Of a stretch of 64,000 nt of DNA, positions 58,157 to 60,631 are shown in pieces. Source of the stretch: Desulfarculus baarsii DSM 2075 (lineage in GTDB: Bacteria; Desulfobacterota; Desulfarculia; Desulfarculales; Desulfarculaceae). Under the pieces are notes generated by a model. It was not told the DNA's origin, did no database searches, and was given only the letters and a program-made list of their open reading frames with translations. Position numbers and translations under genes: made by a program. Every line of letters begins with the position of its first letter. The first letter of the stretch is position 1. The stretch is from positions 3,313,501 through 3,377,500 of the forward strand of contig NC_014365.1 in NCBI RefSeq assembly GCF_000143965.1, given 5' to 3'.

Positions 58157-58294
58157 GGCGCGCCTCTTTGTCGGGATGTGTGACGGATGCCAAATAGGTA
58201 ATATACAGATAGTTTAAATAATGTTTTTTGGCGAAACAACCACCAATCGCGCCCGCGCCGGGCTGGCCCCATCCGGTGCTTGCGGAGAAAAATC

Positions 58295-58801
58295 ATGGAT
58301 ATCGGCAGATTATCCGAGCGTCTCATGGGCATGAGTGAAGAAACGTGGCGGCGTCACGCCAACCCGTGGAGCGGCTGGACCAGGCTGGCCAGTTACCCGC
58401 TGATCTTTCTGGCCGTGTGGAGCAATGTCTGGATCGGCTGGTATTGTCTGGCCCCCATCGCCGCGCTGGCCGTGTGGATCTGGCTCAACCCGCGCCTGTT
58501 TCCCCGGCCCAAATCCACCAAATCGTGGATGTCGCGAGGGGTGCTGGGCGAGCGGGTCTGGATCAACCGCTGGCAAGAGCCCATCCCGCCCGAACACGAA
58601 AAAATGGCCAACATCCTCAGCGCCATCGCCCTGGCCGGCGTGGCCGTCAGCGTCTATGGCTTTTGGGCGCGGGATTTCTGGGCGGCGTTCATGGGCTGGA
58701 ATTTGGCCGTGGCGGCCAAGATGTGGTTTGTCGATCGCATGGTCTGGCTGTTCGAAGACATGAAAGACAAAAACGCCGCCTACCGCGCCTGGCTCTACTA
58801 G
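58295..58801 (+). CDS. DUF6653-like membrane protein
   Basis: The 168-residue protein has about four hydrophobic segments (TRLASYPLIFLAVWSNVWIGWYCL, ALAVWIWLNP, MANILSAIALAGVAVSVYGF, WAAFMGWNLAVAAKMWF). The conserved-looking segment WMSRGVLGERVWINRWQEPIPPEH fits the DUF6653 family. Function unknown. ATG at 58295 follows GGAG. It is divergent from the chemoreceptor gene and followed by a terminator that mainly serves the opposite strand. Confidence 0.7.
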   Translation: MDIGRLSERLMGMSEETWRRHANPWSGWTRLASYPLIFLAVWSNVWIGWYCLAPIAALAVWIWLNPRLFPRPKSTKSWMSRGVLGERVWINRWQEPIPPEHEKMANILSAIALAGVAVSVYGFWARDFWAAFMGWNLAVAAKMWFVDRMVWLFEDMKDKNAAYRAWLY

Positions 58802-58815
58802 CGGCCGCGCCGGTG

Positions 58816-58853
58816 AAAAAACGCGGCGGGCCCTTTTGGTCCGGGCCCGCCGC
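58816..58853 (-). terminator. Intrinsic terminator of the PBP4-like gene
   Basis: A perfect 11-bp stem GCGGCGGGCCC/GGGCCCGCCGC (58823-58833/58843-58853) is followed on the - strand by GTTTTTT. Flanking sequence CTAGCGGCCGCGCCG is shared with the terminator near 600. Confidence 0.85.
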
Positions 58854-58873: not shown

Positions 58874-60439
58874 TCAGAAGGCCTCGTAGAGCGCCTGGCA
58901 GATGCGCGTCAGGTCGTCGCCCACGGCCGCCACGGCCTCTAGGTCGTCGGCCGGCAGGTTGTTGACATAGATGGCGAAGGCCAGCTTGCGCCCGCTTTTG
59001 GCCGTCAGATAGCCGGCCAGGCCCTTGGAGCCCAGGCAGAGGCGCTGATTGAGCAGATCCCAGGCCAGGCTGGCCCCGGTCTTGGCCTGGGCCTTGCCGC
59101 GCAGGGGGCTCTGGCGATTCACGGCCATGGCCAACGCGCCGTCGACGCCCATCACCGGCAGGCACCCGCGGAAGCGCTCGGCCCAGGGCCGCGTGACGGC
59201 CAGGCGCAGCAGGTCGGTGATCGCCCGAGGGCTGACGCCGTTGCCCAGGGGCCCGCCCTCGCCGTCAAACAATGATATGGCGCTGGTGTCCAGGCCCATT
59301 TCACGCAAGGCGTGGCCTTCGACGGCCAGGCCCTGCTCGAAGCTGTAACCGCCGGTGTGGGCGGCCATCAACAGCGGCAGGACGTCGGCGTGCTTGTTGT
59401 GGCTGATCTTGAGGATCATGCGACAGTTTTCGGCCAACGGCGGCGAGACGAACTCGGCCAGTTTGCGCATGTTTTTGTACGAATCGACCTCGGGCAGCAG
59501 CTCGGCCTGATTGCCGCTGTCGGGCGAGGCGGCCAGTTCCACGCCGGCCCGCTCCAAGGCCTCCATGAACAGCACCCTGGCCCAGGCGCCGATATCGGGC
59601 GGGCTGAAGACGCGCACGGCCGGCGGGCCGCCGGCGGGCACGGTCCCGCTGGCCATCAGCACGCCCGGCTCCGAGACCTTCAGCTCCACGTTGGGCTCCT
59701 CGCCGGCTGGGCCGGTGGTCACGTGGTTTTCGATCTCGGTCTGGCCGTCCCTGGGCCGCCAGTCCAGCTTGGCCGGCTGGCCCTCCTCGCCGGGAGTGAC
59801 GATGACGTCGACCAGGTTGTCGTTGATCATCATCGGCGTCAAGGGGCTGTCTTTGTACGGCTGGTTGGCGGCCTCGAAGAGGCGTTCGTCGATGAGCACC
59901 TCGCCCTCGACGCGCTTGACGCCGCTTTTGGCCACCTGGCGGGCCAGATCGTTGAGCGCCGTGAGCGGATCGATCTTGACCAGGCGCACGGGCATTTCGT
60001 CGGCCAGGACGTGGTCGGGCATGGGGAATTCCAGCTTGCCGGCCGCGTTGGTCCGGCCGCCCATGGTCGGGTCGCCCGAGGCCCGCAGGATCAAGTCGCC
60101 ATTCAACACGCCGTCGAAGTTGAGCTGGCCGCTGGAGTAGACCGGCGTGCGGAAGCGATAGTCCGGGCCCATCACCTCCATGGCCGCCGCCACCGTGAAC
60201 AGCATCGTCGTCGCCGCCGGCGTGAACCACTTTTCCTCGTTGAGCCCGGCCAAAAGCTGGCCGCTTGGCAGTTCGGCCACCGCCAGGCCCCACTGGGCGG
60301 TCTTGTATTTGGCCGCCTCCATGATTTGCAGCGCCTCGGGCGGCGTCTGGCCCCAGGCCGCCGGTCGCCCAACCGGCGTCAGGAGCGCCGCCGCCAGCAG
60401 CGCCAGCGCCACGGGGCGCGTGATCCGATACAGCTTCAT
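58874..60439 (-). CDS. PBP4/DacB-type D-Ala-D-Ala carboxypeptidase homologue, active site lost
   Basis: The 521-residue protein has a signal peptide (about residues 1-31) and the peptidase S13 layout: LRASGDPTM, DERLF and a domain insertion. The SxN (ISHN, near 346) and KTG (AKTGAS, near 453) motifs are present. The first catalytic motif, normally PASNTK (SxxK), reads PAATTM: the nucleophilic Ser is Ala76 and the general-base Lys is Met79. The codons (GCG, ATG) are unambiguous. The protein should not acylate penicillin or cut D-Ala-D-Ala, and may be a binding or scaffold protein in the periplasm. ATG at 60439 has GGGGAGAG upstream. Confidence 0.85.
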   Translation of the reverse strand: MKLYRITRPVALALLAAALLTPVGRPAAWGQTPPEALQIMEAAKYKTAQWGLAVAELPSGQLLAGLNEEKWFTPAATTMLFTVAAAMEVMGPDYRFRTPVYSSGQLNFDGVLNGDLILRASGDPTMGGRTNAAGKLEFPMPDHVLADEMPVRLVKIDPLTALNDLARQVAKSGVKRVEGEVLIDERLFEAANQPYKDSPLTPMMINDNLVDVIVTPGEEGQPAKLDWRPRDGQTEIENHVTTGPAGEEPNVELKVSEPGVLMASGTVPAGGPPAVRVFSPPDIGAWARVLFMEALERAGVELAASPDSGNQAELLPEVDSYKNMRKLAEFVSPPLAENCRMILKISHNKHADVLPLLMAAHTGGYSFEQGLAVEGHALREMGLDTSAISLFDGEGGPLGNGVSPRAITDLLRLAVTRPWAERFRGCLPVMGVDGALAMAVNRQSPLRGKAQAKTGASLAWDLLNQRLCLGSKGLAGYLTAKSGRKLAFAIYVNNLPADDLEAVAAVGDDLTRICQALYEAF

Positions 60440-60631
60440 TCCCTGATCTCTCCCCAGAAAGACGACTCTCCCACACCAGCCCGCCACGCGGGCCCAATGG
60501 GCCAACTTTACGCCAAAAAGCGCCGTTTGCTAAGCCTTGCTTTTGCGGCGCGCCGTACCGGCATGATATAAATACCGCTCCGGCCCCGAAAAGGCCGACA
60601 GTCAAAACCGGCAAGCGAGGAGAACGACCGC

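Follow-up and report, generated by a model that had tools for sequence, protein, structure and literature searches.

A PBP4 homologue of Desulfarculus baarsii with alanine and methionine at the catalytic positions of the SxxK box

The locus and its product

We analyzed a stretch of 64,000 nucleotides of the Desulfarculus baarsii DSM 2075 genome (the window). Its minus strand carries an open reading frame (ORF) that begins with an ATG at 60439 and runs uninterrupted for 521 amino acids to a stop codon ending at 58874, which confirms the full-length frame given in a preliminary description of this DNA. The product matched the Pfam Peptidase_S13 profile with 202.6 bits (cut-off, 22.8) over residues 45 to 507, a full-length match that places it in the S13/PBP4 family by descent, and it scored 162.2 bits against the NCBIfam PBP4 equivalog, above the cut-off of 107.8. 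The closest solved structures by sequence were the Actinomadura R39 DD-peptidase, Bacillus subtilis PBP4a, and Escherichia coli PBP4. The features of the locus, in the order of transcription apart from the gene itself, are these:

58874..60439, minus strand: S13/PBP4 (DacB) homologue with the catalytic dyad replaced, 521 amino acids (from the ORF, Pfam, NCBIfam, and the R39 alignment)
60450..60455, minus strand: GGGGAG, possible ribosome-binding site, noted by eye, ending 10 nt before the ATG
60350..60439, minus strand: signal-peptide-like N terminus, residues 1 to 30, noted by eye, with low model confidence
60203..60214, minus strand: former SxxK box, A76-T77-T78-M79 (GCG ACG ACG ATG); Ser and Lys in 71 of 72 frames covering the site
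59396..59404, minus strand: SxN box, S346-H347-N348, kept in the alignment with relatives
59393..59395, minus strand: private Lys349 (AAG) straight after the SxN box, giving S346-H-N-K349; never charged in 70 other covering frames
59075..59083, minus strand: KTG box, K453-T454-G455, kept in the alignment with relatives
58816..58853, minus strand: terminator-like hairpin with an 11-bp G+C stem, a loop of 9, and six U

The preliminary description had also listed a signal peptide, a ribosome-binding site, and a terminator. The first two were recognized by eye only and are best called signal-peptide-like and possible, respectively. For the third, a terminator-like hairpin with an 11-bp stem followed by GUUUUUUC lies downstream of the stop codon; the automated terminator scan, limited to loops of 8, skipped this hairpin with its loop of 9. 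The GC content at third codon positions (0.914) lies within the span of the neighboring genes (0.816 to 0.918). The PBP4 gene stands alone. The gene downstream is transcribed towards it and encodes a DUF6653 protein (58280-58801, convergent, 170 bits in Pfam), and upstream lie a divergent HTH-cupin regulator and an AMP-binding ligase, both facing away.

The claim that the SxxK box has lost both catalytic residues was confirmed. The D. baarsii protein reads PAATTM where its relatives read PASxxK, and an alignment with R39, ungapped between R39 residue 12 and the end of the box, places A76 on Ser49 and M79 on Lys52. Each replacement is one base away from the relatives' codons (TCG to GCG for A76 and AAG to ATG for M79). 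An active S13 DD-peptidase has the SxxK serine and lysine together with the SxN and KTG boxes; here the first pair is absent, and both other boxes are present (346-348 and 453-455), as had been proposed. The residue after the KTG box is A456, a column that holds Thr in 25 of 28 relatives. SxxK sequences occur elsewhere in the protein as S172-G-V-K, S346-H-N-K, and S482-G-R-K; we set aside the first and last as replacement pairs because homology assigns S346, alone among these serines, to the active site.

We built an AlphaFold2 model from an 18-row alignment, with a mean pLDDT of 83.8 and a pTM of 0.85. The model matched R39 with a Z score of 36.6 (437 residues aligned, rmsd 2.8), PBP4a with 36.4, and E. 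coli PBP4 with 33.1, the matches spanning 433 to 437 residues, and it thus has the predicted three-domain PBP4 fold. The protein is like the S13 DD-peptidases R39, PBP4a, and E. coli DacB in predicted fold, domain layout, SxN, and KTG, but differs from them in the Ala and Met that stand for the SxxK Ser and Lys and in the Lys that follows SxN.

Dyad loss and a private lysine in comparison with relatives

We gathered S13 frames from the organism's own class and phylum, from named genomes, and from plasmids, which gave 76 distinct frames, 72 of them covering the SxxK site. Ser and Lys were present in 71 of the 72; the sole exception was the D. baarsii frame. Clustering at 90% identity left 64 clusters with Ser/Lys, one with Ala/Met, and four that do not cover the site. 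A first alignment of the SxxK, SHN, and KTG motifs held 26 homologous frames. A later one held 28 relatives and excluded the distant L002, the near-identical L033, L034, L035, and L048, duplicates, and the split, broken, or partial frames L046, L049, and L101-L106. Neither alignment contains the distant S13 frames of the class (L003-L030), which do enter the 72-frame count, the 90% clustering, and the charge analysis below.

Forty-nine columns were at least 90% conserved among the 28 relatives, and the D. baarsii protein kept 46 of them, departing at D56E (a mild change), S76A, and K79M. When each intact member was left out in turn, it departed at 0 to 12 of the 90% columns, so that three departures fall within the range. 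At 80% conservation, 7 of 82 columns were departed from, the dyad included. The probability that three random departures on 49 columns would include both dyad columns is 0.0026, a value calculated post hoc. Judged by these columns, and leaving the dyad aside, the D. baarsii protein is no less conserved than the intact members. This gives some support to the earlier view that the gene is not undergoing simple decay, with two of only three departures falling on the dyad.

The intact members of the subfamily (L031-L048 and L085-L100) share about 30 to 44% identity with the D. baarsii protein over most of its length and come from the same phylum, Gemmatimonadota, Streptomyces, Burkholderiales, and Acidobacteriota. 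Unlike the D. baarsii protein, all of those that cover the site keep Ser and Lys. The nearest relatives found were L094 and L095 (44% identity, same phylum, other class) and L031 (41%), all with PASTTK. L031 is a PBP4 of bacterial type; its contig bears the title of a Micrarchaeota archaeon bin and is probably misbinned. No closer homologue was present in the 63 genomes of the own class, and S13 proteins were absent from all 19 further species of the own family. A second Ala/Met sequence was absent from two overlapping samples taken evenly across the phylum (395 and 394 genomes) and from one other class (155 genomes). In the tree, the D. baarsii protein had no supported sister, and its terminal branch measured 0.98 changes per column.

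As far as sampled, the dyad change thus appears private to this lineage. The comparison with orthologues proposed earlier gave only relatives that are intact at the site, where they cover it, and none closer than 44%. The description of the protein as a "conserved" noncatalytic one is unsupported, given PASTTK in the nearest relatives, no other Ala/Met sequence, and a family otherwise without the gene. Intact relatives had been named as a sign of a private mutation; they do point in that direction, but they are too distant to date the change or to show whether it is old and kept. The replacement is seen in one sequence only, which gives no measure of purifying selection after the loss, and the loss could fall anywhere on the long terminal branch, even very recently.

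The preliminary description had asked whether another Ser-Lys pair could replace the dyad and had overlooked Lys349, which makes S346-H-N-K349 a candidate. Column 349 holds F, L, Y, P, I, T, or V in all 70 of the other frames that cover it; R39 and PBP4a have G at the matching position, and E. coli PBP4 has M. Among 148 positions covered by at least 50 other rows, 58 are never charged elsewhere, and Lys349 is the single breach of these in the D. baarsii protein. Sixty-six of the 75 other rows have no charged residue at an otherwise uncharged column, seven have one, and two have two. The same 148 positions hold 16 further private residues, the dyad included. One out-of-place lysine gained at the other active-site serine, in a protein without the SxxK lysine, is suggestive, and S346-H-N-K349 could represent either a Ser-Lys pair that has moved or a stray change.

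Ser346 presumably sits in the catalytic centre, by homology. In the predicted model, a helix that starts at 75 carries both 76 and 79, with 76 in its first turn, and Ser346 is two residues ahead of the helix that holds Lys349; a model of the intact L031 showed the matching arrangement. We rejected a drop in model confidence at the SHNK loop as a signal (79 for block 341-350 versus 86 in the L031 match) as too small and too coarse.

Other DD-peptidases in the genome and family

The genome is a single contig of 3,655,731 bases with a completeness of 99.98. The second, active DacB for which a search had been suggested was not found in it, nor was any other S13 protein, an S11 protein, or a VanY protein. 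The genome has five matches to the PBP transpeptidase domain and two proteins of S12/beta-lactamase fold, L092 and L093. L092 (G000:C1:864495-865478) weakly resembles PBP4B and AmpH, far below the cut-offs of those models, and its SLTK box is intact; it could supply the missing DD-peptidase activity. L093 (1465-2361; G000:C1 about 2753666-2754403) is a class A beta-lactamase, scoring 323 bits with bla_class_A against a cut-off of 200.

S11 proteins were absent from all 12 other members of the own family searched and from 21 of 21 neighborhood genomes overall. The own family (G001-G019) appears to lack S13 (0/19) and S11 (0/12) low-mass PBPs altogether, apart from the D. baarsii protein, which raises the question of how pentapeptides get trimmed.

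A probable pseudoenzyme and its alternatives

With the usual chemistry gone and the scaffold kept, the protein is most likely a pseudoenzyme. We propose, with a probability of roughly 0.6, that this PBP4-type protein, presumably expressed and exported, binds peptidoglycan or a partner without cutting and acts as a scaffold or regulator of wall enzymes. Because the serine nucleophile and lysine base are lost, no acyl-enzyme for DD-carboxypeptidase or endopeptidase work would form by the usual route, in agreement with the earlier expectation of a noncatalytic protein, and normal covalent penicillin binding would be lost too. With its predicted three-domain fold retained, along with the groove walls that carry SxN and KTG, the protein would most likely still hold D-Ala-D-Ala stem peptides or protein partners but leave them uncut; the two inserted domains would offer surfaces for partners, consistent with a scaffold or regulatory role towards other wall enzymes. 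Met79 puts an uncharged side chain in place of a buried lysine bereft of its serine, which fits a protein kept for its fold, and so does the lack of other damage. Several points speak against a pseudoenzyme. The replacement occurs in one sequence on a long terminal branch, the less conserved columns hold departures as well, A456 takes the place of the usual Thr beside KTG, and Lys349 may signal that catalysis has moved rather than been lost.

A possible but unlikely alternative is that function was lost privately in a gene heading for decay, in which case an unneeded gene, perhaps from outside the family, was hit at the dyad before any stop or frameshift arose. The intact relatives are in keeping with it, and a family otherwise without S13 and S11 suggests that such enzymes are dispensable there. 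A broken copy from the same subfamily also exists in the phylum: the relative on G576:C106 (L102, L103, and L106) is split over several frames with one internal TGA. By its sequence that relative is the usual form of decay, unlike the D. baarsii gene, in which the frame, the likely ribosome-binding site, and the hairpin are all intact, and random damage would not be expected to strike the two most critical residues while sparing 46 of 49 conserved columns. Sequencing or assembly error would accord with a replacement found in one genome only, but we regard it as scarcely credible: it needs two separate substitutions, some ten bases from each other, in a genome assembled as one contig and with the frame undamaged, and the private Lys349 codon elsewhere would need explaining too.

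The remaining alternative, which we think distinctly unlikely, is that catalysis was relocated, with Ser346 as the nucleophile aided by the private Lys349, the kept Lys453, or both, giving an active or slow acyltransferase with a new layout. The position of Ser346 in the presumed catalytic centre and the rarity of a charged residue where every other row is uncharged both favor it. However, the i/i+3 geometry of Ser346, which the model places ahead of its helix rather than inside the first turn, would be unlike that of SxxK, and one lysine is one event among a background of other private residues. That Ser346 and Lys349, with Lys453, form a replacement centre that arose after the loss of Ser76 and Lys79, and that still recognizes penicillin as a rewired acyltransferase, is in our estimate very unlikely. 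If such a pair did work, it would be a natural move of an active site inside a serine acyltransferase fold.

The pseudoenzyme reading has parallels in other wall proteins. The cited articles report that the dead LytM factors EnvC and NlpD regulate other wall hydrolases (PMC8416486), that B. subtilis PBP2B with an S309A change still supports division (PMC5656894), and that the S69A form of PBP4 from Ca. T. oneisti loses most, not all, of its Bocillin binding and apparently retains oligomerization (PMC7999549). EnvC and NlpD likewise combine a wall peptidase fold without catalysis with a possible regulatory part, but their fold is unrelated and their role was tested, whereas a role for the D. 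baarsii protein would be by analogy. The S69A protein also has its active serine replaced, but it is man-made and keeps the lysine. We discarded Bdellovibrio Bd3459 (5CEB) as a precedent; K38M there is the construct start and not the catalytic lysine (PMC4686830). No natural dead PBP4 showed among the titles and abstract openings listed for inactive or serine-less PBPs and for S13 nonpeptidase homologues, in a collection with few subscription papers. The D. baarsii protein is a single, well-defined natural PBP4 that lacks the dyad and carries an odd additional lysine. A natural dead PBP4, if true, would add the penicillin-binding group to the dead-hydrolase regulators known from LytM and would ask what PBP4 does besides cutting.

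With regard to the origin of the gene, we rejected a viral source, as no viral contig and no PHROG matched, and a plasmid source, as the plasmid relatives (50 records, four examined in detail) were less than 60% identical. The plasmid of Paraburkholderia sp. PGU19 carries a tandem pair of S13 proteins of the same subfamily (L090, 2207-5536), the second of which has SLN and KSG boxes and an intact SxxK.
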